From IMG/VR virus record IMGVR_UViG_3300010157_000074, positions 1-56,956 of that record: DNA of 56,956 nt, one strand, 5' to 3'. Position numbers and translations under genes: made by a program. Origin of the DNA: a virus. Shown here piece by piece: positions 28,871 to 56,956 of the stretch; within the stretch, counting starts at the first letter, position 1, and every line of letters begins with the position of its first letter. A model generated the notes under the pieces. The model was not told the DNA's origin, did not search any database, and saw nothing but the letters and a program-made list of their open reading frames with translations.

Positions 28871-30655
28871 TTACTTATTCTCCCAGTTCAATAGTGACAT
28901 CAGCAGACCGATTCCAAAAGCTTTTAGATCCCAGTCGGTGTCATTGGAAGGATCTAGTCCTTCAATTCCAGTGATCAGCTTAGGATCGATTTTAGTTGTC
29001 ATAGTGGCATTAGTGTACCAAACGCCAGTTGCTATATCCATGTGAGCATCGCTGAATCTAGTAGTTTTTTTGCCTTTTCCAGTTTTCACGGTTACACCAT
29101 TTGGAGTAGAGAATCTACCGGGATCGGTAAATAGATCTTGCATCGTAGTAGTTATAACTTCAGCACTGTGGTTATTAGGACTAAAAGTAGCAAACTTACT
29201 GGTAGAACGAGGGTATACTTTCACAGTATAAGGATCTGCCACTTTTGCTCCAGAAAAAGATTCTTCCATCCATTTTTCATAAACTTCCATTGAAGGAATA
29301 ATGTTGCTGCTATCAGCTGTTTTTATTCTGTCATAAGAAAAAGCGTGTTCTAAAGCTGCAATGTCATGGTTGATCATCTGGAAGAAATGCCAAACTTCAT
29401 GTAAGTAGTCATCAGTCGAGTCTCCACGGAAGAATCCTCCGTCACCCTGCTCTTTTTTCCATCTCAATGAATTTATTAAATTTTTATTTTTCCAGTGTTG
29501 TTTAAATTGCGCACGTGCATCGGAAATTTGAACTCCAAGTTTTCCACCAGTATGAGCTAGATATTCCATTCCAGCTAGAATAATATCCTTAGGAACAAAA
29601 CTAAGAGTTTCTTCTAGATTTTTAATAAGTTTCTTATTTCTATCTATTCTAATATCCTGGAATTTTTCATTACTATTAACATATTTGTAGTCTTTATATT
29701 GATTAAAGAACTGATGTGCAGGCACCGAGTCAAATTCAACTCCAGCCTTTTCCATCTGAGATTTAATATTTTTACCAATTATAGAATGATATTTATTAGT
29801 AAAATCTTCTGCTTTTGGAGAAGCTCTAAGCCGATCTCTTACTTCCTTTATTTCAGTTGCTTTCTTGGCAAGGTCTGATGTGTCAATTTTACCTGTTCGA
29901 ATAGCCCATTTGGTAAGCAGACTTAGGATAGTTTCTCCGCCCTCGTGTGCTCCCGTAACATCTATTAAAGCTCTTACTTCTTCTACATCTTTAGTTAATC
30001 TTAAAGTTTTTTTATTTCTAACTCTTTGTAGCACAGTTTTACCAGTATCAAAAATAAACTCTGAATATGGGGTAGCATAATCATAAGCAAGTTTATGGGA
30101 AAGGTCATCCCCGTACTCAACTAGAAGCATATTAAAAGTTTCTTCTGCACTAAAAACATTTACATCTTTACCAGATAATTCTTTAGCAGCCTCTTGTTTT
30201 AAACTTTGGAATATCTCTTCTTTATCTTCATAAGAAAGTCTATTGAAAGCATTTCTCATAAGATCTTGAGACATAGCTCTAAACTTACTGTCTCCCCTAA
30301 GTATTTCTCCGTTTAAGGATTTAGCATCATTCTCTAGCTTTTTTCTATATTCTTCAGCAGTAAATCCTTCAGGAATAAGACCTTCAGCTCTAGCTTGCTC
30401 ATCTGAGATAGCTCTAGCATCATCTAGAATCATATGTCCTAGGCCGATTATTTCATTTTTAATAGCGGTAGCCTGATCAGATGGGGCTACTGCATCTTTT
30501 TTAGGAGATCCTTCAATCTGTACTACAGGACCATCAATCGCTATGCTTATGTCATTTTTAATTTTTCCAGGAGTAAACCCGATACCACTAGAAGCAATGT
30601 CCTTAGCCGCAGATGCAATAATTTGTTCTCTAGAACCTTCCCTGTTTTGGCTAGG
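28871..30655 (-). other. Polyprotein 2 segment 10: HEVWH zincin, C-terminal
   Basis: Residues 5425-6018. Mostly helical, with HEVWH at 5843-5847 (YLHEVWHFFQMINHDIAALE) and a later E in NHSAEVITTTMQDLF as possible third ligand. It ends with an Asp/Trp-rich segment (DPSNDTDWDLKAFGIGLLMS). It is the only segment carrying the natural C-terminus. Confidence 0.6.
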
Positions 30656-33600
30656 TTTATTATTATTTTGAATACCAAGTTTTTCTAGCATACCCTTTAG
30701 AAGATCAATAGCAGCTTTTTCTTTTCTTTCATCAACAGTAGCAATCTGATCATTGATCCAGTCCGCAACTTCTTTATGCCTTCCAATACCATCTTCGGAT
30801 ATTATCATTCCAGCATATGCTTCCGCTAGATATTCTCCTTCATCAGTAGCTGCATAGTCACTTAGAGGATATTCAGTCATAAATCTACGAAGCGTATCTT
30901 TCGTAGCCTGATCGCTAAAATTAATGATACCTTTTTGTTCAAGAACGTGTGCTATTTCGTGAGCAATTGTAGACTCTAGCTCTGTAGCATCTGCCCTAGG
31001 ATTTTCAGTTAGTTTAGGGTTAGGTTTATTATCTTCTTCGTTCAAAATTTGACCATTAACAAACATGTGAGGAAAAGACAACCCAGCTAAGTTTCGGCCA
31101 CGAGTACCATCATCTCTAGTAAATGGCTTGAAAAAATCCTCTATATTAGGATGAGTAACAATAACTTGAAGCTCTTTTACAGGGAACTTAAATTTAACTC
31201 TAGATAATACATCCGAAAGTTTATTTGCAAATTTAGCCACTCCAGCAGCTGTAGCAGCTCTGTATTCGGTATTTACATTTGTTTTACCATTTTTCTTAGT
31301 TGGATTAGTTATAAATCTAACAACTTTAATAGTCACATTATTATCTTTATTTATATAGATATCGTGATGAGGAAGCAACATATGCTCCTCATCATGCCTA
31401 TTAATTAAAGGAATTATATGCTTAGTAAGATAGACCTGAGCATTAATAGATAGATTGTCACTACTAGCTCCATCTCCCTTAACAACACCCATGTACCACG
31501 TGTAAATAGCATTTTTTTCAGCCATCGTTAAGTTATCAGTTTCTACATCTGCTGCTAACCACTCTGGCTTTGCATCAGGAAGAGGTCTAGTTCTCTGATC
31601 TCCGGCACCAGATAAAAGTGCTGTAATAAATGTTCTGTGTAGCTCGTTTAAGGAAATAGGTTCCTCGACTGGATTAGTTTGACCAGATCCTTCAGGAAGT
31701 TCATTTTCTTTAGCATCTAGTTTTTTCTTTTTTGCAAACTCGGAGATAACCCAGTCAGAGTTTTCTACACTATCATCAACGTTGATAGACGGAATCTCTC
31801 TATTTTGTGATGGGCCAGTGACATTAGGAGTACTCCTGTTAAATTCAATAAGATTATCAAAAGCGTTTTTATCTTTAGGAAGCTGGTCCACTAAATAGGA
31901 GATTACTTTATCTGCGTTCTCAGCGATAAAAGTTTTTTGATCAAGTACTTTATGAGAATCATCACTAGTAGCAGCCCTTACTAGTCTATTTTTTCCTGCC
32001 AGTAGAACTACTTCAGCTTCTTCAAAGCAACCAAAACCTGTGCCGGGAATAGAAAGTACCTGCTCAACAGGAATAATAGTTCCCATAAACATTCCGGCTC
32101 TTTCTTGCAACCTACTAGTAGCAAAGTTGAAAGCATCACCGTGAAGCCAGGCCCAAGCTGACATAGGTCTTTGCAATATTTCAGCATCTCCTATGCCATT
32201 ATACTCAATACCGGTATCTATTTTAAAAGCTTCTTCGTCTACTCCAGTACCTCTGTAAAGAGTTAAGTATTTTATTCCATAGTTTTTAAATCGATCCTGG
32301 GTAAGATCGTACATAGTTTTTAAGAAATCTTTAAGAACAGAACTGTGGATTCCATAGTAGTATTCTGCATTTTCTAAAATATCTTTTGTATACTGGGCGT
32401 TTTTACTTTGAACTTTCCATGGGGCCCACGAACCAGCAGGCATTTTAAATGTCTCAGCAGCAGCAATCTGTAAAGCGTGAGATAGCATATCACTACCATT
32501 AGATGTCTCTGCCCACTGCGCAACAAGTATTGAAGCGGCTTTTTCTTTAAATGCCTCTATGTCTTCCGGATTGTCAAAGAAAATTGGTTTTTTATTTTCA
32601 TTTGCATAGTAATCGTCAAAAAGAGTTTTATAGTCAATAGTTTTTTCATCGTAAGGGTTTCCGTACAGTTCTTCATCGTAAGGATCCATGAAATCTAGTA
32701 CTTCCCTTAGAGTTTCTACATGTAATCCTTCATATGGAGAGTGCTCAGAGTCATCAATAAATAATATAATAGAATTTCCATTTAAATTATCCGATTTACT
32801 ATCTAAAGCTTTTAGAGCCATCTTTTGACTATCTAGATAACTCAACCTAGATCTGACTACCTGACTGATAGATATGGCATGATCCAATGCTCCCAAAATA
32901 TCTTTGGGAGAGGATAACATATTATTACCTATATTTTTAGCGGCAATCTCTTTTAATTGCTCAGAGGCTCCGCCCATATGTCCAATTGAGCTATCTATAT
33001 CAAAAGCATCCGGATCGTACCACGTAGCAATCTCATTAAGTCCAGTCTCTTCATTCTCAGCCATAAGCTCATTTAAAAGATCAGACTGTATTTTAAGTAC
33101 GTCTGTAAATCCAGGTACATCCTTTGGATCCAAATTGATTCTAGGGTATAAAAGATCTTCGTCATTAAATAGGTGGTATGGATTTATAAGTGATCCATCC
33201 TTAACATTCTTGAAGTTTTCTAGACTTCCATCCTTATTTAGAACTACATCTCCGACTCCTCCGGATCTTTCCATTGTAGTTGGATTTTTAAAGTCCACAG
33301 TGCTAACGCCAACTACAACAGGCACATACTCTCTTCCAGCTATACGTGCAGCTTCAACCCTATGATTTCCTTCTGCAATAAAAGCTCTTCCAGTAAGAGG
33401 GTTGTACCAAACTAGTACCGGCTCTAAGTAGCCAGTTCCGTCTTCGAGGTCATGGGCTATAGAAGATGTACTGCTCTCCATATCTGCAAGATTGCCTTTC
33501 ATTGTGGCAAGCTTTTCAGTTCTAACATAACCCAGTGGATTACCGCCATTACCTATTCCATATATTTTTACACCTTTGCCAGTCCATTCAGTAAGGTCTA

Positions 33601-36600
33601 GGTCTGGGTCATTCTTGTCTCTATAGGAGTTATTTAGAGGAATTACTTCAAGATATTTATTAAGAATAGTAGGCTCTTCAACATTTTCTCTATTTTGATT
33701 AGGTCCATAGTCAATTTCATCGCCATCAAGCTTAGGCTCTTCTACAGGAAGACCCTTCTCCTTAAGAAGATCAATCTGTAGTTGCTTAGATTCTAAAGAA
33801 TCGTGTACGTCTGGTTTTCCAGCATCCACCGAGTTAGAAAAAGCTTTACCGTACATGGTAAGAGTGCTTGAGTGGTTAACAGGTTTACTGTAGTGCTTAC
33901 GAGCTACATACAACATTGCTGTTGCAAGACCGCGGCGTCTATATTCATCATTGGTAAGTACTAAACCAATTTTAGCAGCAGCATTAGGATCTTTTTTGTC
34001 ATCATCATCTACTCTTAATGAAGCTATATGAAGAAATTTTCCACCAAATGTATCTACATTTTCCATACCCTCAGGTGTAAAGTTGGGTGCTAAGAATCTA
34101 CCTTCAAGATCATGTACGGTTACCAGTACACTTTTATCGCTACTGCTGTCAGTGTTTATGTCAGTAAGGATCATATATTTTCTACCGTACTTATCAATAA
34201 ATTTATCTGTGTAACGGACAAACCCAGTAAACTTTTTAGGTTTAGATTTACCTAGAGTAACTTGATCAGCGATGGTTTCCATATTTGTTTTAGAATCTGG
34301 GTTAGCTACAGTTGTGAATTTAGTGTACTCAAATCTCCTAGAAATTTTAGCTGCACGTATTTTTGAGTCATCTCCCGAAGCTATGGCATCTTCTACATTT
34401 TTATTTTCCCAGTCCATGATTTTTTGCTGTTTTGCATTAAATGGAGTGCCGTCGGGCAGCTGAGTGTAATCATAATTATAGATAGTATCTAGATCAAGAG
34501 TACGATCATTAGGATCAAAAGGCTCAGGCGGATACTGGTTCTCACGGTTTTGAGAAGGTTGATTATTAGATAGAGTAACCTTTGATTCATCATTTCTATG
34601 AAGATCAGGGTTAGGGTCAACTGAAAGAGAGAATGCTCTACCAAAAGAGGTTAACATTTCTGAGTGCTGGACTTCTTTTCCAGAACGCTCTCTTGCTAAG
34701 TGAAGAGCTGCAGTAGCTAGACCTCTTCTTACATATCTATCTGAAGTGTAGACCATGCTAATTTTGTTATTAAAGACATCTAATGAAGACACAGGAGTTC
34801 TATCTTCTGAATTATCTTGAAGATCTTGTAGGGAGTTTTTACTCTTATCGTAAAGCTTTACGTTTGACATGCCGAGGCCGTTTACTACCTTGGTAACTAC
34901 CCAGTACTGTCTGCCGTACTTGTCAGTAAACTCATCAATATACTGAGTACTCTGCTTGTACTCTGGTGGTAGATCTGCATAAGGTTTACCGGCACCGCTG
35001 TAGTTCATTCTAGAAGTATTGTCATCTAGAAGTCCCACCTGATCTTTAATACTTTCAAGATTAGTGCCAGACTTTAAGTTTGGTTTAGCGGTGTATCCCT
35101 GATAGATACGTCTTCTTTCAGCAATACGCAGTTTTCTTTCAAAATCATCAGGTTCATTGTCAATCGCATCTTTAAGAATATCCATTTGTTGCTGTTGATA
35201 AACATTGAATGGGGTACCATCAGGCATTTGAGTATAATCGTAGTTGTAATACTTCTCTAAATCAATAGTGGGATCTGTAGGATCAAAAGGTTCTTTCTTG
35301 GCTTTGTTTCTCTTGAAAAATCCTTCACGGTTTTGAGATGGTGCATTGTCTTCCTGTAGTTTTATAGACTTCTCGTTATTGTGCAGATCAGGCTTACCAG
35401 GGTCAATGCTGTTAGAGAAAGCAAATCCCATGCTAGAAAGATTATCTGAGTGAATTACTGGAAGTCCTAATCTCTTTTCTAGAACAGCAACCAATGCTGT
35501 TGCTATGCCTCTTCTTTGGTATCTATCGGTAACCATTACACTTTGGATTTCAGACACAGATGGGTCTCTAAATATGTAGGAATCGAGTCCTCCGACATCA
35601 TTAATTCCAGACACAGGTTGATCTTTTCTTACATAATCTTCAGGTAGAGGCATACCTTCAAAGTTTTTTTGGTCGTAGGCTACTACAGTCTGACGTCCAG
35701 AGCTTTCGTCTATGTTAGTAACTATGTAGTATTTTCTACCATATTTATCGGTAAACTTATCCACATATCTTGTGTAAGTTAGTCCACGAGCTTCATCAAA
35801 ATACTTTACAGCTGGCTTATCGCTAAACTCTACCTGTTTAAGAATGCTATCTCTTGTAGTAGAAGAGCCTTTGGTAGGCTTAGCAATTATTTGCTGATAT
35901 AAAGTTCTTCTAAAGTTTTTTAAATTCTTTACAGCAAAAGAGTTAGCATCTTCATCATTATTTTTAAGAATGTTTTCTAATCTTTTAGCTATTGCATCCA
36001 TCTGCTGCTGCTGATCACTATTAAAAGGAGTGCCATCAGGCATCTTGGTATAGTCATAGTTGTAATACTCATCTAAATCTGCTTTTTTATCTCTAGGATC
36101 AAAAGGCTCTGGAAGGTACTTAGACTCTTCTTCCTTAGGAGCAGACTCTATTTTTTCAAAGTGCTTGTCAGCAGCTGGCCATAGATTGCGTAGCATTTCT
36201 TCAGGCATACCTTGAGCAGTAGGCTTAGTCATAAAGTCTGAGAGCTGGTCTCTACTAGTGAACATTCTCAAGAAATCGTCAACGTTGGTAGAAAGATCCC
36301 AGCTGCTCTGTTTAATCCAATCTGCATTTTCATCGCTGTTATCGATGTTTATAGGTTTTTCAGCACGTTCTCTATTTTGAGAAGGCTTGCTTTGTTCTTG
36401 AATTACTGTCTGTCCGCTTACTGGATCGTTAGATACAATTTGATTTCTTTCGGCTTCTTCTTTAATTGCCGCTTCTAGATCGCTATTATCTCTATTTCCA
36501 GGATATGAGTGATATGAGAACAAAGCTTCTTTTATGTCCCCGCCTAAAACAACAACTTCACGTTCATCCATAGATCCAAACCCAGATCCAGAAAATGATA

Positions 36601-39600
36601 TAACTTTATCGGCCGGAACTATTGTAGCCATAACTACTGCATTTTTACCTGGCGAGTTCATTGCAAAACTCTCTGCTTTATATCTATTAGTTGACCATGA
36701 AGATAGTGGCCTCTGCTGTACAGTGCCTGAAAATACTCCAGTAGACCCTAAATTATTATAAATTTCATTTAGTTCTGTAGAGTCAGATCCCCTATACACA
36801 ATAAACCCATCAATACCCTGATCCTTCAGCAGATCTTGAGTAGCGTTATACATTGCATGTAAGAACTGTGTATAAATAAGTCTGTGATCTTTAACTTCTT
36901 GATCAACCTGATCTTCATAGTGGTTATTTAAATCTATTAAATCTTTTACTTCATTAGGAACGGTTCCCTGCTCCCTATAGATATCTACATTGTATTGATT
37001 CATGCCTCTAACAAAGCTCCACTCGGATGTGGCTTTAGGGTCCATAGCAAATATATCTTTAGCTACTTTTTGCATAGCATGAGATTTTATGTTTTTATCA
37101 TTAGAAGACAGTGCCCATGAGTGAATTAAATTAGAAATCATTATTTTCTTCAGATCATTTACATCTTCCTGATTAAAACTTGAATGTACTCTTAAAAACA
37201 ATTGATCATTTATAAACTTTATAATACTGTTTGAATCTGTATTGCCCATTTTTTCTAGAACAGAATTCATAAGTTCTTTATTTACAGTCAATATAGATAT
37301 AGTTGACAGACTCTTAACTTCATTAACATTAGTGACTAAAAGTTCTGTATCTTCTTTTATATCGGATAGATCTGCATTAAAAGCGTTGTATATTGATGAA
37401 GATGCAGGGCCTGAAAGACGAGAAAAAAAGGCCTCTTTTGCTATACCGTTGTAGTTCATGTAATGCACATCCATGCGGCTAGATGCATTAAATAGTGGAG
37501 AATATCCACCGCTCATAGCAGCTTTAAGCAAATCATCAAATCTAGCATCTGGCATATACCTAAGAAGTCTTGCAGCTGCAACTTGCTTAAGCAGGATAGA
37601 TTGAGAAAACTCAGACGTTGAGCTAAACAGATCGGATATAGAGTCGCTTGCGCTCAGATCGTCTATTTCGCCATTTCTTACAGCATCTTCTACAGCTGAA
37701 ATATTTGTCTTTTGAGTAGCTGTAGTGATATTTCTTTCAGCACCCTCACGGTTTTGGTTAGGGTTAGACTTTTCTTTAGCTGATTGAACGTCACCTAGAT
37801 CACGGATCTTGTCGTCATAAACGTTACGGATTTGCTCTAGGTCATTGCCACTTGTAGCGGAATCTTCGTAAAGTGAGTTTAGCTTCTTAAGCTCATTGTA
37901 AAGTTCTTTAGCTGCAGCTTTGTAGACGTTCTTGTCTGCACCAGGCTGGTTTCTAAAGTTTTCAATTGCATTTTCAAGATTGTTTTTAAAGGCACTTAGA
38001 TCATTCTCTAGATTTCCATTGTAAGAAGCATTTTCTATAGCTTCAGGAGCTACCGAAGTTTTAGGTAAAGCTTTACTTCTATTAGAAATAATATTTCTGA
38101 TCTCATACTCATTTTGAGTGTGGAATACATTATCTAAGGAATATGACTCTTTAGAGTCGTTGATGTTTACAATTTCAGGATTTTTATTTCCATCAAGCCT
38201 GAGTTGATATCCCCACTCAATAAAGTCTGTTTTATCCCTAAAAGCTGTAGGATTAGGCTTTTTAAATACTTGTAGCGTTATCTTTTTAAGATTTCCATCA
38301 CTATCAACAACAACTAGATCATCTCCCTTGTTGATTATTTTACCGTCGGCACCCCTGTGTATAGGGTTAACCTCGGCACCATTACCTGAAGAGTAATTAT
38401 CTATATATTTTTCAAAATTATCTAAATAATCTGTACTAGACATTATCTTTTTAAAAGCTATTTCTAGATCTACATAACGAATAAAGTCATCTATATCTTC
38501 AGGGTTTAAAATCTTTGCTAGCTGATTAACCTTATCGTTTGCATCTTTTTTAGCAGCATCAGGATCTTCAGTTCTTTTACTTCTGTGGATGAAATCATAG
38601 ACTTTTTTAATAGCATTGAACAGTCTGTAACCGTCTTCACGAGAGATCTTGTCTGGAGTCTCTTCCGAGGTAGGCTCTTTTACAACTTCTGGCTTAGGCT
38701 CAACCGGTTTAGCCTTAATAGCTTTTTCAATATCTTTTTTGTCTTTAGGGCTAAAAGCATTGAGCTTAGTAAGCATATTGAAGTTATATGTAGTTTCTTT
38801 CCCGTTAGGACCTCTTACGGTTAGCTGAACAACTCTACCTAGAGTATCTTTCTTAACTACAACTCCAAGAGCATAACCATCTGGACCATAGATAGTCCAC
38901 CCAACGTCTACTTTTTCTGCTAGATATTGCTTAGCTGTTTCCTTGGTTATTTGAGTTGGGCCAAGATCTTTAGGAGTTTCTACTGAAGTTACAGGAGTCG
39001 CGACAGGTTTTTCCGGCTTCTCTTCAACGGGCTCTTCTGGCTTTTCTTCAGCAGATTTAGCAGTTTCTGCCTCTGCCTTAGCTTTCTCATCCCACTTTCT
39101 CTGTACTTCAGCCATCTTAGCTTCTTGAACTGGAGCAGTAGCGTCTTCATCCATTTTTGGATCAGTGCTGGTTGGCTTGAAAGCATCGTAGATCATTTTA
39201 GGGACGTCAATCATGCCGCCTTTTTCATCTACGTAAAGGAAGTACTTAATAGGCCCCCAGATATTTTCTGATTGACCTTTGACAAAGTCGACGTCTTTAA
39301 GATTTTGACTCTTGCGCCTACCAATAGCAAATCTGCTGTAAAGTTCACGGTAGGTCATTACTTCGCCATTCCAGCGAACTTTTTTGTCTAGGTGGGCTTT
39401 AATTTTACCTAATTGCATTGGAGATAGAGCATCAAAGTCTAGAACTCCGCCAGCGGTCTCAATAACATTTTTCTTAGGCTCTTCTGTAGGCTCAGCTGCT
39501 GGCTCTTCTACAACTTCAGGCTCATTTACAACTTCTTCAACGTCAGACTCAGAGATGCCATCTTCTACTTCTATATCCCTAAAGAGGTTGTCAAAGTTGA

Positions 39601-46927: not shown

Positions 46928-47130
46928 TATTCTCCGCCATCCTTAAGGATGTCTACCCCGATTAAACGTTGCAGCTCCTCATTGGCGGCTTTAGAGCCTT
47001 CTAAAGTTAGGTTTACTAGTTGCTCGATTGAAAGAGATGAGTATGGCACTTTTTTAACAACGTGCTCATCATTTCTATAAGACTCTACGGTAAGCATAGG
47101 CTCGGCCTTAGACTTTTTATTTTCGTCCAT
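46927..47130 (-). CDS. Small hypothetical protein between the polyproteins
   Basis: 67 residues, ATG with TAGGA upstream. It has a charged N-terminus (DENKKSKAEP), then VESYRNDEHVVKKVPYSSLS and an amphipathic helix (IEQLVNLTLEGSKAANEELQ). Its stop overlaps the GTG of polyprotein 2 (TAGTG), so it may translationally couple that giant gene. No family recognised. Confidence 0.7.
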   Translation of the reverse strand: MDENKKSKAEPMLTVESYRNDEHVVKKVPYSSLSIEQLVNLTLEGSKAANEELQRLIGVDILKDGGE

Positions 47131-47147
47131 TTATATATCCTACGTAG

Positions 47148-47300
47148 TTATTCTGACGGAGTGTTTTTAGGAGTAGGCTCTGCTACATCCTCTTCACCAC
47201 TATCATATAGGAAATCTGGATCGGGGTTTGGGAAAGAGATAGCAGTCCAATACTCTTCATCTTCAGGAGTATAGTGATCAGGGTTTAAATAATTTTCCAT
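47148..47300 (-). CDS. Small acidic hypothetical protein (50 residues)
   Basis: ATG at 47300 preceded by AGGAG with 7-nt spacing; 50 codons and TAA. The product starts MENYLNPDHYTPEDEEYW and is very acidic, with Pro/Asp/Glu-rich sequence (PNPDPDFLYDSGEEDVAEPT) and few Lys or Arg. It fills most of the gap between polyprotein 1 and the next small gene. The good ribosome site and tight spacing make it credible. No function recognised. Confidence 0.65.
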   Translation of the reverse strand: MENYLNPDHYTPEDEEYWTAISFPNPDPDFLYDSGEEDVAEPTPKNTPSE

Positions 47301-47368
47301 GTAAATACTCCTCGAAATAGTTAATAAGTCTGTAAATAGTATACCAAAGTATCTGAATAAAGACTTAA
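47301..47368 (-). other. 68-nt gap after polyprotein 1
   Basis: Contains the AGGAG ribosome site of the 50-residue gene and a loose TAAGTC/GACTTA inverted repeat with a long loop. No convincing terminator. Confidence 0.4.
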
Positions 47369-48628
47369 TTAACCACCAAGAAGTGCTTTAAGTTGATTAA
47401 GAATATTGACTCTATCCTCAGGATCAGCTAGACTAATGCTCCAGTTGTTTGCTTTTCTATCCCAGAAGAATGAGAATGGGATCTTCTTATCTTTAGGTAC
47501 TAGTGAAACACTCTTGATTAGATCTTTAGCAGCCATAGTATCACCCATCAGGAAGATTCTATTACCTTCGATTCGATAGTTGACACCGCCTCCAAGACCT
47601 CCAGAAGATCCATCTTCACCAGTTACTGGCTCAATTGGCATGGAGGTAGCTCCAGGCTGATTAGTTGGATCATACTCTTCATCTGGGTTATCTTCATAGT
47701 AGCCAGCTAGGATGTAGTCAACTGCCTTGCTTGCCATAGAAGCGGCCTCAAACAAAGCGTTTGGCTCTGTTTCCAAGAATCTCTTCCAAGACTGAACATA
47801 AGCAGCCACGTTTTCAATACTGGTGTTGATCCCAAACATAGAAGCTAAAATAGCTGCTCCAATTTCTGCAATAAGTTCTTCACGAGCACGGACATCCTTG
47901 TGCTTACCGTAGTTATCTAGAAGATCTTTACGATCTAGACGCTGAGGGTCTCCAGTACTGTGGACCAGCTCGTGGAACAAAGTATCTAGGTGCTCTTCAG
48001 TGCTATTGAACTGTTCTCTTAGAGGCAAGCTGACTGTGTCCGTCTGAGGTGACCAGAAAGCTGAGTCTCCAGGGGCATATTGGATGTTAGGCCCGCCTGT
48101 GTAGGAAGCAAGGATGATATCCTCTACCTCGTGCATAGGAGGTGGGTCTTTTCTAGGAAGTGGTGGAATAGTAATACCCTTAACCACATCTTCGTTATAG
48201 ACAACATCAATGTCGAGTCTAGTCTTGGTTCTAGAACCATCATCCGGCTTCTGGTCACCAGTCTTTGGGTCAATGATAGTTTTGGTCTCATCTGGCTTTA
48301 CAGTGTACTTACTCTTCACAACCTTGGTTATAAGCACGCCATCGTTTTCGTCTACGTAGCCACCAAGCTTAGCAATAGCGTTCTTTGTATACCAGCGAGT
48401 ACCTTTGTAGCCTCTGAATTGGCTTAGAACTTCTAGAATAACTAGGTTTCCACCCTTGTAGTTCTTACCAGTAGCGCCTGATGTAGGTAGGTAAGATCCA
48501 CCGCCAGTCCAAGGCTTCTTCCAAGGAATAATTCCCTTATCCATAGCCTCGGTAATTTGAGCCATAACCTGATCTACAGCATCTTTATTGCTCTTTATAG
48601 GTTTGCTATTTTCGCGGTTTTGAGAAGG
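47369..48628 (-). other. Polyprotein 1 segment 8: ArdC-like antirestriction protein
   Basis: Residues 2759-3177. N-terminal ArdC single-strand-binding domain: QITEAMDKGIIPWKKPWTGG, then ATGKNYKGGNLVILEVL and RWYTKNAIAKLGGYV. Then the zincin domain with HELVHSTGD (HELVH at 2977-2981) and AREELIAEIGAAILASMFG supplying the third ligand. ArdC proteins protect incoming DNA from restriction, and the first PSQNRE of this segment would free an ordinary-sized ArdC. Confidence 0.88.
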
Positions 48629-51600
48629 ACCGTTGTCTTCTAGGTCTTTCCAACCAAAAATTGCCTCGGAAGCTCCAAAGATTCCAGATTTATTTGCCAC
48701 TTCAGAGACCTTCACGAACTTGTCACCATTTTCGTCAGTGTAAAGTTCTACTCTCTTATTTGGCAAAGCTGATCTGAGTTGAGCCACGTACTCTTCCGGA
48801 TCTAGTCCATTAGGAATAGGGTCAAGAACAGGAGTCTCGATCTCGGCTGTCATTCTTTCAGCAGCGTGAACTGCCTCTGTGAGTTCCTTTAGACCGCGTT
48901 CTCCGCCAGGATATTGAGGATCTCTAGAGATAGGCTCAAGAGACATCTGGTAATCGTACTCAGCTTGAATAGCTTCGTCATAGGCTGCATTAATCTCTTC
49001 TTCAGACATTACTGGCTGCTCAGATGCAGATTTATTAGGAGTTGAATCTGAATCTGATTCAATAGCTTTTGCAACTATATCTAAGCTAGACTCTTTGACG
49101 TTTTCTGGATCTGACTTAGCATCTATGCTATTATCCCCTTGGAAAATAGTAGTTCCGTTTTTACGAACTTGGATAGCATCATTAGAGATAGTAGCTTCAT
49201 ACTTGCCATCAGGAGAACTCCAAGTGTGCTTGTAGTCATTTCCTTCAGGTCCACCTAGATATTCGGTATTCCAGTTAGCAGTGTAGTCATACTTACTGTC
49301 AGGGTTGGTAGCACCTTCACGGTTTTGAGACGGGCCTCCGATAACCTTTTTAGCCTGCTGGCCATTAACATATGATGCACCGCCACCGCCATCAATAGCT
49401 TCAAAGAATACGCTAACTTCATCGGAATCGTGACGACTTATCATCTTGATTCTCTTGTTTCCCTTAGCAGTAACTACAGTGTCACCCTTTTGTAGAGTAT
49501 TAGGGTCTACTTCTACAATTTCAGGTCCTGAGCTTTCAGTATTCTGTGAAGTAGGTTGATCAGGGCTCTTATCAGACCTAGCTTCTAGCTGGCGTAGGTA
49601 ATCCTTACGCTTTGACTTGAATTCTTCTATCTTACCATCTAGCCAATCCAACATTCCAGGATCTAATTCATCCATAGTTCTAGTTACAGCAACGTACATA
49701 AGGTTCAATGCTTCTGTAGTAAGAGATCTAGGCATATTGCCCTTCTCGATAGCGTCAGCATCTTTTTGTGGGTTAGGCTTGAACCATGTTCCTGAAAGTT
49801 TAACTTGTTTAGCTTCTAGTCCCTTGGCTCGGTGAGCAGTTAGAACTACGCTGTCGACATCTGCACCACTTAGAGCGTCTACAAGAGCGCTTAGTTGCTC
49901 AGATCCATTTCCTTGAACAGGAGTGGTCCAGTCCCAAGTCTTACCTGTATCCCATGTGTATCCCATTGAAGATAGAGTGTCAGAGTTATTCTTAGTTCCA
50001 TTATTTGGATTCTTTAGCTCAGGTGTCCAAGGCTTTGCATCACCAGTATTGTAGAGACGGATAGCCCCATTTTCAATCTTGTAGCTAATGAAGTTTCCAA
50101 GATCTCCTTCGTCGCCCCAGTTGCCATCCGAAGGCTTTTTGAATCCTTGAATACCAATGATTCTTGCACCATCTACTGTCCGCTTTAGTTCAGCAAATAC
50201 TGCCTTGCCATCGTTATCTCTTTCTTGCTCTTCTAGACGAGCTTGAGTCAGCTCCATAATGCCTAGCAATCTTCCTACTGCTGGATCAGAATCTTCTTGG
50301 TGAAGTTCAAGCATTTGCTTCCAGCTGTCGTAGGAGTCTAAGTCCTCATGCGCATTTGATGGGCGATACTTAGGATTAGCACCAAAAAATAGCCACTTAG
50401 CTGTAGCCAAGAAACTATTCATTTCAGCTTTAAATTCCCTAATAACACCAGCACGTTGACCTCTACCAACCATAGTCATAATTTCTAGTAGAGCATCAGC
50501 GTTGGTTGTGGTAAGAATCATGTCTGCATCTGTCATACTTCCAGGAGTTGCAAGACTTGAAGTCTTATTTGGATTTCCGACTAGACGTTCGTCATCCTCG
50601 TCCTTAATCTCCAAAACCTGGTTAGCAAAATCAGCAACATCCTGTCCGGCACGGAACATCATGGTTAGAGGTAGGGTTACCATTCTTCTAAACATATTTA
50701 GGCTGTTGACGGCTCCACGGAACTGATAGATAGATTGGTGAGGATCTCCAACAACAACAAGCTGTATGCCATTGTTGTGTAGAGTCTCTTGCTCATCCAT
50801 AAGTCTAAAGAATACTCCGTTAACGTCCTGAGCCTCATCAATCAGAATAATGTCTGGGATTGCACCAAGACCGTGGGCGCTTTCTCCCTTAGAGTTAACT
50901 TCTTTTAGATTAGGGTGGCTAAGAGCAAAGTTCTTCATCATATCGTTGAAAGTTACAGGAATCTGACGAACGCTGTCATCGTGCGGCTCTAGTTTTTCTT
51001 TCCATATTTTCTGAGCTAGCTCTAGGAAGAATGGGGTATAAGCCTCAGGGCCTCCTATTTTTTCTCCAATTGCATCGTCGAAGTGTTTTCTTTCAATCAT
51101 GTCATCTGCACTAATAGTCCAGTTGTTTAGACCCTTAAGTGTAATTTTTACTGCTAAGAACTTAGAAATTCTTTTTCCATTACCTAGCTCTACTTCGTTT
51201 GGAATCTTGAAGTAATCAGCTATATCTAAAAAGCCATTGATCGGTCTATTTTTTGCATCCGACTGCTTCTTCATAGCAATAAACTTCTTAGAAAGTTTGC
51301 TATTTACAGGAGCTTTGAAAGATACAGAGTCCATAGTTCTAATTTCAGTATTTCCAGGGAACTTAAGTCTGTTCTCATCTGCAATAGCTTTGTTGAAAGC
51401 CATAGCAAGAATTCTCTTCTTAGGGAAGTAGTGAAGTATTGCCTTTGCAAGACCGATCAAGGTAGTAGTTTTACCTGTACCGGCTAGAGCCTTGATAACA
51501 ACTGACCATCCACGAATACCAGCTTCAATAGCGTCTTTCTGCTGATCGGTGTACTCTTTATCCAAGAATCCAATATCGTGTCTACCTGTAGCCAGCTCAG

Positions 51601-54600
51601 CCTTGTTCTTGGTATCTTCAGGACGTTCTCTATTTTGAGATGGGGCATCGATAACATCTTGAGCTGCTTGCTCTAGTTTCTTAATAGCAGAGTTGATAGC
51701 ACGCTTTTCTGCTGGACTACTAGTAGAGCTTAAAGCATCTTGCAAATTAGTCATAGCATATGAGAGCCGAGACAAAGTACTCTGCTGATTCACGCCTTCG
51801 CGAAGTTGACTAGGGCCACTCTTTTTGTGACGGTCAGGATATTTCTCATCTAGGTAAGCATTTAACTTATCTAGGTCATATCCAGTAGGGACTCGTAAGC
51901 CATCAACGTCTAGGTTGTTAGCAATGGCGTAGTCAAGTTCTAGACCGTCCATTTCCTTAACTAGATCACCGATTTCGTTAGAGTTGACATTTGGAAGCAA
52001 CTTCCAGATCTCTTCTCTACGTTCCGCAGATACTATGTCTCTAGGATCCAATAGACGTCTTTCAACGCTCTTCAACTGCTTAGGGCTTGGTTTTCTGATC
52101 TTATTTAGTGGATCATCAATAACGTTGCTTTCAGTAAGAGGTTGTTCACCATCGTCTGGCTTTGGAGGAAATAAGCTTGAGAAAGTAGGACGATCGTTTG
52201 TAGGAGTTCCTTCTGGAGATGTAGAGTTAAGAGCATTTCTTGCTTCTTGCTCTAGATCCTTAGGATCTGGTTCGTCTCCTCTAGCAGCTCTTTCAACAGC
52301 TCTATCAGCTATAAATTTTAAAGCACGTTCGACAAATGCTTCGTATCCTGGAATATACTTAGCAAGTTTTGCATCATAGTCATTATCTGAAGCATCGAGA
52401 TCAAAGATATTGTCTTTAATCAAATCGGTTCCAGACTTAGCTCTCTTAAGCATCTGCCCTAGAAGTTTGACGTTAAGTTCTAGATCATTAGCTGCATTAT
52501 GTAATGAATTACTAGGAATACCTTCGTATCTTCCTAAAGCTTCTAGAGCGGTAGAACCATGTATACCAAAGTCTCCTACCTTATATGGACCACCAAGGTT
52601 AGTTTTTTTGTTAAATACATTGTAAATGTGATCAGCTAGTCCAAGCGTGTCAATCATTCCAGCAGGAGAATATTCTGCTAGTCCAGCTTCTTTAAGAGTT
52701 CTATTTAGGACTTCTAAATCGTAATCAGCAACGTTGTGACCAGCTAAAACTGCGTCTGGTCCTAGAAATTCTAAAGCCTTAGCAATAACTTCACTCTTGG
52801 TTGGGAGACTTGCAATCCACTCAGGAGTTACTCGATTGCCTTTGTCATCCTTTATATTTGCCATAGACCATGAACTTAAAGGAGATCCAGGATTCATGTA
52901 GCTTATAAACTTATCAACGATTTCTCCGTTTACAACTTTATATATAGCAATCTGAATTGGATCGTTTTTAACATGAGGCTGTAAAGGGTCAAAGATACCG
53001 GTAGTTTCAAAATCAATAAAGTGTAGAACTTTATCTCTCAAAGCTTCAGTTACATCATCCCAGTTCTTTGCTCCAGCCATCCAGTCGCGAACAACGCCCC
53101 AGAAAGCCTTAGGTTTAACTCTTGCAGGAGGTCTAGGCTTATTTGGGTGGTTAGAGTAGTCAATGATTCCAGGAACTGGATCGGTGTCAACTGGGATCTC
53201 TGGAGATTCAACAGGATTTGGCTCAAATACCTCTGCTGATGTGCTGTGGTCTACTTCATCTTCTAGAGATGGGTCGTAATCATTTTCGAATGGACTATTG
53301 TGGTATCCATCTCTACCCATAACAGAGCCGACTTCAGCTGCAAGTTTTTCAAGAGTCTCTACGGTCTTAGGCTTTTTATTCTTAAGACGTCCGTAGGTGT
53401 GAGCATTATCTGAGTCAGTTAGACCCTTCTTAATAGTCTCTAGACGTTCCATAACCTTAGCAGGTTTGATTACGTACTTTCTACGTAGGTCAAGCATACG
53501 CTTAAGATCCCTGATGTCGTCGACTGCTCCGTCGATGATTCTTCTACCATCGGCATTTACAAGATCTCTGTGATTAGCAACAAAAGCTGCTAAACGAGTC
53601 AGAGCGTAGCGAGATCTACGAGCAGCATTCTTACGAGCTTGTCTATTAACATATTGCTTTACTTCTTCTTGATCTTTTTCTTCAGCAAGAATCTCTTTAC
53701 GAGCTTCATCGGTTGGCTTGTAGTCTTCCCAGCCTTCAGGGGCATTAGGTCTGCCAATAAGATCCATCAGGTTTAGGTCATTAATAGACGCTCCGCCTTC
53801 AATGGCTTTCTTTATTAGAATACTGTCGTGAGCATCTTCACGAGCTTTAAGTTCAGAGATGATTTGAGTACTTACCTCGTATACGTTCATCCTAGGAACG
53901 GCTTTGACAATTGCAGCAATTTCTCTGTCGCTTGCTAATCCCTTGTCAAAGATACGTTCGATGCTGGCAAGCATTCTGTCAGATGCACCGTCAAAATCTC
54001 TAGCAACTAGCCCGTACTTGTTCTTAGGCTTGTACTGCTCTTTGAATGGATGCTCCTTGAATGTGTAATACCATTCACGGATCTCGCGAGCATTCATGTC
54101 TTTGTAGTTGTCCATAAACTCTTGGACTAAATCTTGAGGAATATCTCTATCCTCTAAGAATCTTTCAATACCAACAAGTTGGCCATCGCTAGGGCCCATA
54201 GCTTCTTGAGGAACGTTGCTGCTAAGGTACTTAGGACTTTCAGTAGGCTGATCTGCTAGCCAGTAGTCAGGCTTACCGTTTACAGTGTTCTCGGCTGCTC
54301 TAAGTTTTTCTAATTCAGCTATTTCTTCTGGAGTAGGTTCTGGAGCCTGAGGTGGTTTAAAAGGTAGACTATAAGCTTTTTCGTGAAGTTGATCGTACTC
54401 TGCCCTGGTTAGGGTGTTGTCATCGATCTTTTTTCTGATCTCTTCTGCTTCTTGTTTACTCCAGTTTTTGTTATCTAAAGCCCAATTTAGGAATGATTTT
54501 TGAAGCCATGAAGCCATGCCTTTTTCAGGTGAGGTAAGTTCACGGAAGTTCTTTTCAATATACGCTGCAAGATCATTTACTTCTTTTACAGTGTGCTCTT

Positions 54601-56956
54601 CAGGATTCTTTCTGATCGCTCTAACTTTATCCCAAAGCTCTGGCTCATCTTGAACGTATCTAGAGTTTAGGATTGCAACTAGACGACGGACCTGACCCTC
54701 GTTAGGAATGAAGTCATCATTAACTCTGTTTTGAGAAGGACCTAAATCTGTATTCTTTGCTTCTTTAGAATTTACATATTTTGTTAAAGCTGAGTGCAGT
54801 CTAGATACATAGTAGGTGTCATCGTTAAACTTGTTTGGCTCATCTTCGGATGCAACATGCATCTCGTAGTATATTTCTGCAACAGCTTTTCGAGTTTTTT
54901 CTGCACTTCTACCGTTAGTAATATCGAAATCTTTAAACTCCGAGTACAAACTGAATCTATGTAGATTATCTGGAAGTTTAAACCAGTCTCTAAGAGCTTG
55001 AGTAAGAACCTCATTTTCATCTTCACCAGGATAGATAGGGTGTGTCTTTAGAGGACCCATGCGTTTATCTACAATTTGAACGCTTCTTAGGTTATCTCCA
55101 GAATCAACAATTCTGGCAGAAATATCAGATCTTGAACCCTGTCCAGCCCAAAAACCATTGTCATTAAACTTTGGAGTGGTAAAGTCTCCAGGATAAGTGT
55201 CCTGTAGGAACTGTGCAATGATTGCATCAGCTTTCTTGATCATGTCAGAACCTGGGCCGAAGTAATCGTACTGGAAACGTTCTGATGGGTCTAGCTTAGA
55301 ATACATCTCTCTTTGGTAGTCCGGAACGTTGGCAATGTTAGGGTTAAACAGCGGGTCTAAAGCTTCTAGATATTTAATAGCATGGACCTGGTCTTCAACC
55401 TGCTCCCAGTTAAAGAATGGAACCTGAGTGTCCATAGTGAAGTCACTATTGCCGTCACGTTCGGTTAGGGTATACACACCGTCAGACATAATTGGTTGGA
55501 ATGAAACGTCTCCAGTTCTTTGGTCATACACCAAAGCAACGTCTGATTGACCATATCCGTAAGTTACGCGGAATCTGCGATCTTTAGATAAGTATGTGTT
55601 GTCTCCAATTTTGTTCCAGCCTTCTGGCATGGAACCATCTGGATCATTTTCGTTTTTGCCAGTAGATTCTGGCTTAGGCTCTTCTTCTGGAGTTTCTCGG
55701 TTTTGACTAGGAACAACTGCTTCTACAGCAGGTTTTTCTTCAGGAGTTAGATCCTGGTTATCTTTATCTCCGAAACGATCATCTTCATCTCCAGCAATCT
55801 TCTGTACGCCAGCCCAGTCTTGTGCAAAACCAATAGGGCTTTTATTTCCCTTAGCACGCTTTGAACCCCAAACAGTAATAACTGGCTTAGTCATGTCTAG
55901 GTTTTCAGTACCATCGGTGCCTACTATTTCTAGGCTATCGCCATACGCTTCTTTAGCTTTTTCTACAAAACTTTCAGTAACTTTATTAGGCTTATTTACC
56001 ACAGAAGCGGTGTAGCCATCAGCTGAATCGTAGACTGCGTCAGAGTGAAGTTCATTACCGGTAAAAGTTGAACTAGTCGGAGTATACGGACTCTTTACCC
56101 AGCCTTCTGGCATATCAGCAACAACAAGATCTTTAATATCAACAATGTCGTTATCATTTGGAACCGCTTTTCCAACTGGAAGATCTTTAACTGCTTCGGC
56201 AGGTAGAATAGCTGCAACGGCTTCAAAAGCTGACGCTGGAATTTTGTAAAGTCCATTTTTTAAACCCGGAATATCTGTAATTTCAAAGTCTATGTAGCCA
56301 CCATTTTCAGAGTAACCTGCAACTTTACCTGTAACGCTTCTAACGTCTCCTTTAGGAAAACGTACGTTTACTTTTCCACCGCCACCCATTTCGATCCATC
56401 GACCCTTAGAGTCACGGAGCTGACGCTTGGCACGAAGTGAACGCCAGAAGCTCGAGTTCTTACCTTTGAAAACATTCATTGCTGAGTGGTAAGCACTCTT
56501 TACTTTACTTAAGAGACCGGCTGTAAGAGGGCTAACAAGTACGTCAATTGGCAGACTTCCAGCTGGAAGAGCTAGTAGACGTGTGTATGCGTGTTGAAAT
56601 TGTACGTCCATTGGGTGGGCACCGTAAACAGATGCAACTAGTGAACGAACTTCTTCATCTTCAATACGTGGATCTGCTGAGTACCAAGCACCACGTCGAG
56701 TACGAAACGTAATTGGATCAAGTGACAACTCAGCTGTAGAACTTGGGTGGTATTCAGGTAGTAGATCGGTGTTACGGTCTTGACCGTTAGGACGTGGGCC
56801 TTCTGTAGCCAAACTAAGGAAATGCGAAAGCTCACGAAGAACGTTGAAGTAACGTACGTCGGTAGTAAGATTTTCTGCTGCAGAAGCAGTGAGTGATCTC
56901 AATGCAACAGTTTCTAATTGCTGTTCGGTGACTCTACGAATCTCTTCAACTCGAGC
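47369..56956 (-). CDS. Giant head-associated polyprotein 1: exonuclease, UvrD-like helicase, ArdC; 5'-incomplete
   Basis: The frame is open to the right edge (18 extra codons, beginning ARVEEIRRVTEQQ); the TTG at 56902 has no Shine-Dalgarno, so the true start lies outside. Residues here are numbered from 56902 (1-3177). Seven PSQNRE-type sites define segments of at least 397, 324, 975, 57, 696, 74, 235 and 419 residues: leader with RDSKGRWIEMG and SH3-like barrel; unknown; helical repeats with DnaQ-like exonuclease; a 57-residue spacer; UvrD/Fbh1-like helicase; a small barrel; unknown; and ArdC antirestriction protein. It shares leader and exonuclease types with polyprotein 2. Known families suggest injected proteins that repair or protect incoming DNA and defeat restriction. 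The upstream neighbour is probably a portal gene (inference from usual order). Confidence 0.9.
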   Translation of the reverse strand, partial: ARVEEIRRVTEQQLETVALRSLTASAAENLTTDVRYFNVLRELSHFLSLATEGPRPNGQDRNTDLLPEYHPSSTAELSLDPITFRTRRGAWYSADPRIEDEEVRSLVASVYGAHPMDVQFQHAYTRLLALPAGSLPIDVLVSPLTAGLLSKVKSAYHSAMNVFKGKNSSFWRSLRAKRQLRDSKGRWIEMGGGGKVNVRFPKGDVRSVTGKVAGYSENGGYIDFEITDIPGLKNGLYKIPASAFEAVAAILPAEAVKDLPVGKAVPNDNDIVDIKDLVVADMPEGWVKSPYTPTSSTFTGNELHSDAVYDSADGYTASVVNKPNKVTESFVEKAKEAYGDSLEIVGTDGTENLDMTKPVITVWGSKRAKGNKSPIGFAQDWAGVQKIAGDEDDRFGDKDNQDLTPEEKPAVEAVVPSQNRETPEEEPKPESTGKNENDPDGSMPEGWNKIGDNTYLSKDRRFRVTYGYGQSDVALVYDQRTGDVSFQPIMSDGVYTLTERDGNSDFTMDTQVPFFNWEQVEDQVHAIKYLEALDPLFNPNIANVPDYQREMYSKLDPSERFQYDYFGPGSDMIKKADAIIAQFLQDTYPGDFTTPKFNDNGFWAGQGSRSDISARIVDSGDNLRSVQIVDKRMGPLKTHPIYPGEDENEVLTQALRDWFKLPDNLHRFSLYSEFKDFDITNGRSAEKTRKAVAEIYYEMHVASEDEPNKFNDDTYYVSRLHSALTKYVNSKEAKNTDLGPSQNRVNDDFIPNEGQVRRLVAILNSRYVQDEPELWDKVRAIRKNPEEHTVKEVNDLAAYIEKNFRELTSPEKGMASWLQKSFLNWALDNKNWSKQEAEEIRKKIDDNTLTRAEYDQLHEKAYSLPFKPPQAPEPTPEEIAELEKLRAAENTVNGKPDYWLADQPTESPKYLSSNVPQEAMGPSDGQLVGIERFLEDRDIPQDLVQEFMDNYKDMNAREIREWYYTFKEHPFKEQYKPKNKYGLVARDFDGASDRMLASIERIFDKGLASDREIAAIVKAVPRMNVYEVSTQIISELKAREDAHDSILIKKAIEGGASINDLNLMDLIGRPNAPEGWEDYKPTDEARKEILAEEKDQEEVKQYVNRQARKNAARRSRYALTRLAAFVANHRDLVNADGRRIIDGAVDDIRDLKRMLDLRRKYVIKPAKVMERLETIKKGLTDSDNAHTYGRLKNKKPKTVETLEKLAAEVGSVMGRDGYHNSPFENDYDPSLEDEVDHSTSAEVFEPNPVESPEIPVDTDPVPGIIDYSNHPNKPRPPARVKPKAFWGVVRDWMAGAKNWDDVTEALRDKVLHFIDFETTGIFDPLQPHVKNDPIQIAIYKVVNGEIVDKFISYMNPGSPLSSWSMANIKDDKGNRVTPEWIASLPTKSEVIAKALEFLGPDAVLAGHNVADYDLEVLNRTLKEAGLAEYSPAGMIDTLGLADHIYNVFNKKTNLGGPYKVGDFGIHGSTALEALGRYEGIPSNSLHNAANDLELNVKLLGQMLKRAKSGTDLIKDNIFDLDASDNDYDAKLAKYIPGYEAFVERALKFIADRAVERAARGDEPDPKDLEQEARNALNSTSPEGTPTNDRPTFSSLFPPKPDDGEQPLTESNVIDDPLNKIRKPSPKQLKSVERRLLDPRDIVSAERREEIWKLLPNVNSNEIGDLVKEMDGLELDYAIANNLDVDGLRVPTGYDLDKLNAYLDEKYPDRHKKSGPSQLREGVNQQSTLSRLSYAMTNLQDALSSTSSPAEKRAINSAIKKLEQAAQDVIDAPSQNRERPEDTKNKAELATGRHDIGFLDKEYTDQQKDAIEAGIRGWSVVIKALAGTGKTTTLIGLAKAILHYFPKKRILAMAFNKAIADENRLKFPGNTEIRTMDSVSFKAPVNSKLSKKFIAMKKQSDAKNRPINGFLDIADYFKIPNEVELGNGKRISKFLAVKITLKGLNNWTISADDMIERKHFDDAIGEKIGGPEAYTPFFLELAQKIWKEKLEPHDDSVRQIPVTFNDMMKNFALSHPNLKEVNSKGESAHGLGAIPDIILIDEAQDVNGVFFRLMDEQETLHNNGIQLVVVGDPHQSIYQFRGAVNSLNMFRRMVTLPLTMMFRAGQDVADFANQVLEIKDEDDERLVGNPNKTSSLATPGSMTDADMILTTTNADALLEIMTMVGRGQRAGVIREFKAEMNSFLATAKWLFFGANPKYRPSNAHEDLDSYDSWKQMLELHQEDSDPAVGRLLGIMELTQARLEEQERDNDGKAVFAELKRTVDGARIIGIQGFKKPSDGNWGDEGDLGNFISYKIENGAIRLYNTGDAKPWTPELKNPNNGTKNNSDTLSSMGYTWDTGKTWDWTTPVQGNGSEQLSALVDALSGADVDSVVLTAHRAKGLEAKQVKLSGTWFKPNPQKDADAIEKGNMPRSLTTEALNLMYVAVTRTMDELDPGMLDWLDGKIEEFKSKRKDYLRQLEARSDKSPDQPTSQNTESSGPEIVEVDPNTLQKGDTVVTAKGNKRIKMISRHDSDEVSVFFEAIDGGGGASYVNGQQAKKVIGGPSQNREGATNPDSKYDYTANWNTEYLGGPEGNDYKHTWSSPDGKYEATISNDAIQVRKNGTTIFQGDNSIDAKSDPENVKESSLDIVAKAIESDSDSTPNKSASEQPVMSEEEINAAYDEAIQAEYDYQMSLEPISRDPQYPGGERGLKELTEAVHAAERMTAEIETPVLDPIPNGLDPEEYVAQLRSALPNKRVELYTDENGDKFVKVSEVANKSGIFGASEAIFGWKDLEDNGPSQNRENSKPIKSNKDAVDQVMAQITEAMDKGIIPWKKPWTGGGSYLPTSGATGKNYKGGNLVILEVLSQFRGYKGTRWYTKNAIAKLGGYVDENDGVLITKVVKSKYTVKPDETKTIIDPKTGDQKPDDGSRTKTRLDIDVVYNEDVVKGITIPPLPRKDPPPMHEVEDIILASYTGGPNIQYAPGDSAFWSPQTDTVSLPLREQFNSTEEHLDTLFHELVHSTGDPQRLDRKDLLDNYGKHKDVRAREELIAEIGAAILASMFGINTSIENVAAYVQSWKRFLETEPNALFEAASMASKAVDYILAGYYEDNPDEEYDPTNQPGATSMPIEPVTGEDGSSGGLGGGVNYRIEGNRIFLMGDTMAAKDLIKSVSLVPKDKKIPFSFFWDRKANNWSISLADPEDRVNILNQLKALLGG
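49334..49555 (-). other. Polyprotein 1 segment 6: 74-residue mini-domain
   Basis: Residues 2450-2523, flanked by hexapeptide sites. The core LQKGDTVVTAKGNKRIKMIS, then EVSVFFEAIDGGGGASYVNG, is a small SH3/KOW-like barrel. If both sites are cut it would be a free nucleic-acid- or protein-binding peptide; the left site is the degenerate TSQNTE, so it may stay fused to the helicase. Confidence 0.5.
49556..51643 (-). other. Polyprotein 1 segment 5: UvrD/Fbh1-like SF1 helicase
   Basis: Residues 1754-2449. Motif Q YTDQQKDAI; Walker A LAGTGKTT (about 1806-1813); Ia MAFNKAIADE; Walker B LIDEAQD (DEAQD 2022-2026); III VVVGDPHQSIYQFRGA; IV-like TMMFRAGQDVADFAN; V VVLTAHRAKGLEAKQV; VI LMYVAVTRTMDE. All helicase motifs appear intact. 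The AFNKA and ...GTGKTT context resembles Fbh1-type 3'-5' helicases. Cleavage at the two flanking sites would release a 696-residue enzyme, a normal size. Confidence 0.9.
51815..54739 (-). other. Polyprotein 1 segment 3: helical repeats and DnaQ-like exonuclease
   Basis: Residues 722-1696. DEDD exonuclease at about 1290-1480: ExoI HFIDFETTG (D1297, E1299), ExoII AGHNVADYDLEVL (about 1388), ExoIII HNAANDLELNVKLL (about 1467). Four helical modules of about 45 residues (near 735, 903, 975 and 1608) share a Q/M-L-x-x-I-E-R-x-L pattern, for example DGQLVGIERFLEDRDI and PKQLKSVERRLLDPRD. The AGAKNWDDVTEALRDKV lead-in matches the one before the exonuclease of polyprotein 2, so the two enzymes are paralogues. 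Confidence 0.8.
55712..56956 (-). other. Polyprotein 1 segment 1 (partial): leader with RDxxGRWxEMG motif
   Basis: Residues up to 397. A helical N-terminus (YFNVLRELSHFLSLATEGPR, YGAHPMDVQFQHAYTRLLAL) is followed by RQLRDSKGRWIEMGGGGKVN and a strand-rich SH3-like stretch (SVTGKVAGYSENGGYIDFEI). The motif parallels polyprotein 2 segment 1. The helical part could be the end of a longer head protein that starts outside the window. Confidence 0.55.

Follow-up and report, generated by a model that had tools for sequence, protein, structure and literature searches.

How would a phage make use of a short peptide that recurs between the enzymatic modules of two giant proteins, and what might read it? 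We addressed this question for 56,956 nucleotides of viral DNA (IMG/VR record IMGVR_UViG_3300010157_000074, hereafter the window), in which two giant frames sit upstream of a head-protease protein and the capsid protein. The capsid, tail and protease genes are closest to those of actinobacteriophages of Microbacterium, Arthrobacter and Gordonia and of the metagenome-assembled Actinomycetia phage DSL-LC01.

The repeated hexapeptide and its place in the chains

The hexapeptide PSQNRE occurs in ten exact and five one-substitution copies (PSQNRV, PSQLRE and PAQNRE once each, PNQNRE twice), giving 15 sites, all on the minus strand, six in chain 1 and nine in chain 2 (Table 1). From composition 2e-4 exact copies were expected. 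The motif was absent from the other proteins of the window, in agreement with an earlier claim, and from the rest of the near-complete contigs G002, G004 and G008 (113-137 kb). An earlier note on this DNA had counted 16 copies, 10 exact and 6 variants. The exact ones stand, but only five variants do: the sixteenth copy, TSQNTE (about 49535-49552), was left out because it is not conserved in the closest relatives, which have TPQKTE or TSKNVE there, while true sites stay PSQNRE. The 696-residue helicase of that note depends on TSQNTE, and the segment without this site measures about 764 aa. The sizes given for ArdC (about 413-419 aa) and for the GNAT modules (261-348 aa) between sites are correct.

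Chain 1 is open at the window edge with at least 3195 aa, its true start lying beyond; in the near-identical contig G004 it measures 3239 aa from stop to stop. In the part compared, the window differs from the 113,694-base IMG/VR record behind G004 by 1 mismatch in 10,956 bases. Pfam places two or more conflict-related domains within one phage chain (ArdC-N, MPTase, UvrD, RNase_T, GNAT).

Table 1. Features of the window discussed in the text
Feature	Position	Strand	Remarks
Giant chain 1	47372..56956	-	N-domain, RNase_T exonuclease, UvrD-type helicase, ArdC-N + MPTase zincin
N-terminal domain of chain 1	55712..56956	-	common to tagged and tag-less giants
Tag PSQNRE	55694..55711	-	chain 1, immediately after N-domain
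Tag PSQNRV	54722..54739	-	chain 1
Tag PSQLRE	51797..51814	-	chain 1
Tag PSQNRE	51626..51643	-	chain 1, before helicase
Tag PSQNRE	49316..49333	-	chain 1
Tag PSQNRE	48611..48628	-	chain 1, before ArdC-MPTase
MPTase-PolyVal zincin domain	47738..48088	-	HELVH site intact; candidate tag reader
Giant chain 2	28871..46927	-	6018 aa: N-domain, RNase_T, zincin modules, several GNAT acetyltransferase modules
N-terminal domain of chain 2	46178..46927	-	26% identical to part of chain 1 N-domain
Tag PAQNRE	46160..46177	-	chain 2, immediately after N-domain
Tag PSQNRE	42137..42154	-	chain 2
Tag PNQNRE	37745..37762	-	chain 2
Tag PSQNRE	36368..36385	-	chain 2
Tag PSQNRE	35324..35341	-	chain 2
Tag PSQNRE	34541..34558	-	chain 2
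Tag PNQNRE	33686..33703	-	chain 2
Tag PSQNRE	31796..31813	-	chain 2
HEIAH zincin site in chain 2	30947..30961	-	same family as HEYGH modules of other tagged phages
Tag PSQNRE	30638..30655	-	chain 2
124-aa protein between chain 2 and protease protein	28494..28868	-	fast evolving
Head maturation protease domain	25451..25903	-	in 1506-aa protein 23660-28180; rival tag reader
Major capsid protein	21468..23516	-	acidic N-terminal region, no tag

The first tag follows directly on the N-terminal domain in both chains, no tag lies within a Pfam domain match, and the stretches from tag to tag can be aligned over their whole length among G002, G008, G007, G003, G009 and G005, with modules gained or lost between phages as tag-bounded units. 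A conserved peptide is thus present at the module junctions of the window's chains, and the earlier view that the peptides separate self-contained modules holds. Judged by alignment and Pfam limits, which are the basis of this statement, the tags lie in flexible joints between modules; a structural model of three joined GNAT modules reached a mean pLDDT of 31 and did not resolve the linkers. In G003 (L053, L054), G009 (L055-L057) and also G011, neighbouring tags are sometimes separated by only 9 to 31 residues, which would suit a lost module or a doubled site. The 624-aa module at 31814-33685 has no Pfam match; within it are an ART-like RG...EExE pattern and a stretch, EGNHRVEAAR, that looks ParB-like by eye.

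Both N-domains also carry an RDxxG[RK][FW] stretch on the minus strand (56396-56416 and 46805-46825, RDxxGRW in each). The stretch is found twice on the same strand in the 1506-aa head-protease protein (27065-27085 and 24122-24142) and in several relatives. It may be a shared head-targeting or assembly signal, and together with the position in the head gene block it would liken the giants to packaged proteins. The loading of each chain as a single unit, as proposed earlier, would fit one shared N-domain bearing such a stretch.

Selection on the peptide and its replacement in relatives

Between the window and G002, synonymous and non-synonymous differences numbered 18:1 in tag codons and 54:66 in the flanks (Fisher p = 3e-5), and between the window and G008 27:7 and 94:109 (p = 4e-4). 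Flanks are 15 codons on each side; for these counts the sites of a gene were pooled and codons were taken to be independent. The 10 exact copies of the window phage have 9 DNA forms, with a nucleotide identity of 0.788 compared with 0.753 ± 0.023 expected from the codon usage of the genes. In four of seven phages (window, G002, G008, G011) the DNA likeness of the copies stays within about 1.5 s.d. of this expectation. It exceeds it in G003 (0.845 vs 0.779), G009 (0.836 vs 0.775) and slightly G013, so that some recent copying is possible in these three. The tags might thus be recombination seams or neutral linkers that were copied with the modules and have no reader, an idea that draws on this excess as well as on the gain and loss of modules between tags. 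We consider it highly improbable and disfavoured by both tests, since most phages show no likeness beyond codon usage, the window phage spells its peptide in so many ways and purifying selection on the peptide is strong beside free flanks. These comparisons indicate that selection acts on the tag at the peptide level and that the copies are not duplicated DNA. The tags look like sites that are read by something, as the earlier note supposed.

Relatives carry other tags. PSPKEE stands at 19 of 19 sites in G003, PSPK[QEK]E at 18 sites in G009 and a mixture of PSQKEE and PSPKEE in G005. GFxQxPG is found in G011, G013, G023 and G025 (21-24 copies), with a GFDQxxG form in G026, and [IL]D[KR]M[AS] in G032 and G033 (16 IDKM in G032). 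Tags of distant relatives were found by enrichment within each phage's own giants. For the window, exact four-letter enrichment was used because a PWM tag finder that included tail proteins was noisy there, its shuffled control scoring above the real sequence. The weaker classes VEESS (G021, G031), P[QM][FL]M (G029, G030), PI.KK (G028), PIVDRK (G012) and IEDM (L097) are less sure than PSQNRE, PSPKEE, GFxQxPG and IDKM, because their patterns were set after the sequences had been inspected.

The different peptides occupy the same places. At the junction before the helicase, where the window has PSQNRE, relatives carry PSPKEE, PIVDA, IEEMA, IDKMA, PIIKK or IEDMA. Among 12 aligned chain-1 proteins, tags of different classes coincided 120 times compared with 14.4 ± 4.0 at random, or 20.5 ± 4.8 when random sites were restricted to poorly conserved columns. 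With one phage for each of eight classes there were 55 coincidences vs 9.3 ± 3.2 (largest of 2000 randomisations: 23). The alignments indicate that the junctions are kept across relatives while each lineage replaces its peptide at all sites together. The separator code is thus more striking than first reported, because the peptide is exchangeable and the positions are not.

The situation that the earlier note held to speak against processing, relatives with the same domains and no hexapeptide, was found in part: some relatives with the same N-domain and some shared modules have no detectable tag. No convincing tag was seen in the giants of G015, G018, G020, G024, G027, DSL-LC01, A3Wally, Pumpernickel and Sixama, and none among the N-domain-bearing isolates of the phage collection. 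The search would miss cut sites of two or three residues, so the lack of tags in these relatives is not proof of a lack of cutting. Most proteins returned by a wider ArdC-MPTase search were short and free-standing, and no additional clear tag class came to light beyond this phage group.

Candidate readers of the tag

We propose that PSQNRE is one lineage's separator tag in the flexible joints of giant polyvalent chains and that a lineage-specific factor reads it in trans as a peptide, which would explain why the copies in one phage stay alike and change together. From the sequences, recognition by such a factor carried in the giant cassette itself appears to be the most economical mechanism. 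Reading would be proteolysis, in which one loaded chain is cut into separate effectors, and the cutters would be the zincin metallopeptidase modules (MPTase-PolyVal and the HEYGH family). As these candidates are embedded in the same chains, the chains would be self-processing. We give this reading, our first choice ahead of docking, a probability of roughly 0.4.

An MPTase is present in the giants of the PSQNRE, PSPKEE, GF, IDKM and P[QM]FM classes, with two in those of G026, and a HEYGH-type zincin in those of PIVD, VEES and other classes. One or the other occurs in each of the six tag classes with both chains covered and in no tag-less relative examined; in the tag-less G020 and G027, a third HExxH family is the only one present. 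No zincin was seen in the sequence available for L097 and G028, where the second chain is absent or incomplete. Both active sites of the window's chains, HELVH and HEIAH, are intact, and the HEIAH region gives a weak M78 match under the cut-off. Iyer et al. (2017, PMC5512222) propose that MPTases process polyvalent proteins; there, P1 DdrB is cut, whereas N4 vRNAP is packaged whole despite its MPTase. Against zincins as readers, no one family of them is common to all classes: PIVD and VEES are without MPTase and have the distant HEYGH family alone, and MPTase was rejected as a universal reader. The fit of the MPTase tree to tag class is also no closer than expected from common descent. The co-occurrence is partly confounded by length, as most tagged giants exceed tag-less ones and hold more modules of any kind, though GF giants, at 4801-5120 aa, scarcely exceed those of tag-less G018 or G027. 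One could go further and suppose a lineage-private processing code, in which each lineage gives its self-cutting effector polyproteins a 'password' of their own as cut site, and the in-chain protease changes along with it. This extension is tentative and we would not count on it. Such a code would perhaps stop relatives in the same cell from processing each other's cargo.

According to the earlier note, the adjoining head maturation protease cuts the tags inside the prohead. A head protease of the assemblin/gp21 type is indeed encoded beside the chains. The 1506-aa neighbour has PHROG matches to head protease, and a predicted model of the protease, fairly confident in its first 150 residues, matched herpesvirus assemblins and T4 gp21 in Foldseek (best E 3e-3; target-normalised TM-score to gp21 about 0.5 from this partly confident model). 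Giants and protease protein may both be directed into the prohead by the RDxxGRF-like stretch that they have in common. The last residue of the PSQNRE and PSPKEE tags is glutamate, which stands at P1 for the T4, phiKZ and SPN3US proteases (PMC5694885), and P1 DarA is cut by the head protease (PMC12810830). We nevertheless regard cutting by this protease as quite unlikely. The same motif was not found in capsid protein and cargo, as the capsid proteins of aligned relatives are without the tag, and the likely cut region of the capsid protein, before its conserved core, is constant across tag classes. Few conservative class-linked residues distinguish the protease domains of PSQNRE and PSPKEE phages, and identity remains about 67-75% even to P[QM]FM or GFxQxPG phages. 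IDKM, PIVDRK, P[QM]FM and GFxQxPG have no conserved glutamate. Finally, G026 parts tag class from protease clade: it has GF tags and giants closest to those of G011 and G013, whereas its protease groups with tag-less phages (clade support 100/98). As G026 pairs GF-type giants with head genes of the tag-less clade, the tag travels with the giants and not with the head genes. G026 (L079, L080) is either a natural recombinant or its neighbours have had their giants replaced.

The main alternative to cutting is that the tags stay uncut and act as docking peptides that tie stretches of the chain to a lineage-specific partner, for example a factor for loading or ejection, or the inner face of the capsid. 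Encapsulin cargo-loading peptides bind the shell and mark single cargos; the tags would by analogy resemble them as short lineage-specific peptides in disordered stretches, and differ in that they stand solely between modules. Docking would suit short peptides in poorly conserved joints, several per chain, that change together, and a tag chemistry that differs wholly between classes, as that of binding peptides can. We judge it rather unlikely, however, because no single-module protein of these genomes has a tag, PSQNRE and PSPKEE phages differ little in their capsid protein and the separate shared N-domain already looks like a loading signal. Nor was a partner gene that switches with the tag found among capsid, protease, portal-region and tail genes. 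The 124-aa gene was rejected as a partner, as it differs between classes only as fast genes do, and so was a 385-aa gene, which is mosaic, its G011 copy being nearer to the window than its G003 copy. A host protease or other host factor might instead read the tags after injection, so that tag class follows the host, which would explain constant head genes beside changing tags. The switch of class between phages with 87% identical capsid protein would then need frequent changes of host, and we think this very improbable.

Comparison with known systems

The self-cutting reading by in-chain zincins has a parallel outside phages. Eukaryotic RNA virus polyproteins combine one chain, in-chain proteases and a conserved junction peptide, with likely coevolution of site and reader. 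The giants share with them the single chain, the in-chain protease modules and the conserved junction peptide, but belong to a DNA phage and hold a catalogue of effectors instead of replication proteins, and their cutting is putative.

Among phage proteins, the giants are like polyvalent proteins in being long chains of anti-defence and nucleic-acid enzymes; the domains of the latter (ArdC-N, MPTase, RNase_T, helicases, GNAT, ART, primase) are listed in the available part of Iyer et al. (PMC5512222). Unlike polyvalent proteins as described in that part, where no repeated separator peptide appears, they have a lineage's own tag at homologous joints and reach 6000 aa. P1 DarA and DdrB are processed, head-carried anti-restriction proteins, DdrB with an MPTase; in contrast to the cutting proposed for the giants, they yield few pieces, and the available parts of PMC12810830 and PMC5512222 report no repeated junction tag. 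With the substrates of prohead proteases (T4 gp21, phiKZ, SPN3US gp245; PMC5694885) the giants have in common a short repeated peptide in injected head cargo, here putative, a protease encoded alongside and, in the PS tags, a terminal glutamate. Unlike in those substrates, the motif is longer, stricter and absent from the capsid protein, other tag classes are without glutamate and tag class parts from protease phylogeny (PMC5694885). No description of such tags was found in the literature searched, the coverage of which excluded most subscription journals.

The cutting of polyvalent phage proteins, and the positions at which it would occur, have been a matter of prediction since 2017. Our analysis supplies exact candidate sites, a series of natural alternatives to them at homologous junctions and in-chain candidate enzymes, and in G026 a natural recombinant separates candidate enzymes and tags from the head genes. 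Tags that are cut sites would mean polyprotein maturation in tailed phages, at as many as about 24 sites, together with a new set of sequence-specific metalloproteases; docking tags would represent a cargo code for phage heads.

The neighbouring head and tail genes showed some further features. The counterpart of the N-terminal half of the head-protease protein stands on its own in the relatives L036 (2894-6700), L018 (3212-6715) and L033 (945-4127), and has LysM-like stretches together with repeats, for example KRNADAKAYG or KPSSDERRDSLKP. Following the capsid gene, the 385-aa protein (20239-21396) is 68% identical to that of the distant G011 and 42% to that of the close G003. The first 180 residues of the major tail protein (18333-20222, 629 aa) match a tail-protein family and are followed by a long Thr/Ser/Ala-rich extension.
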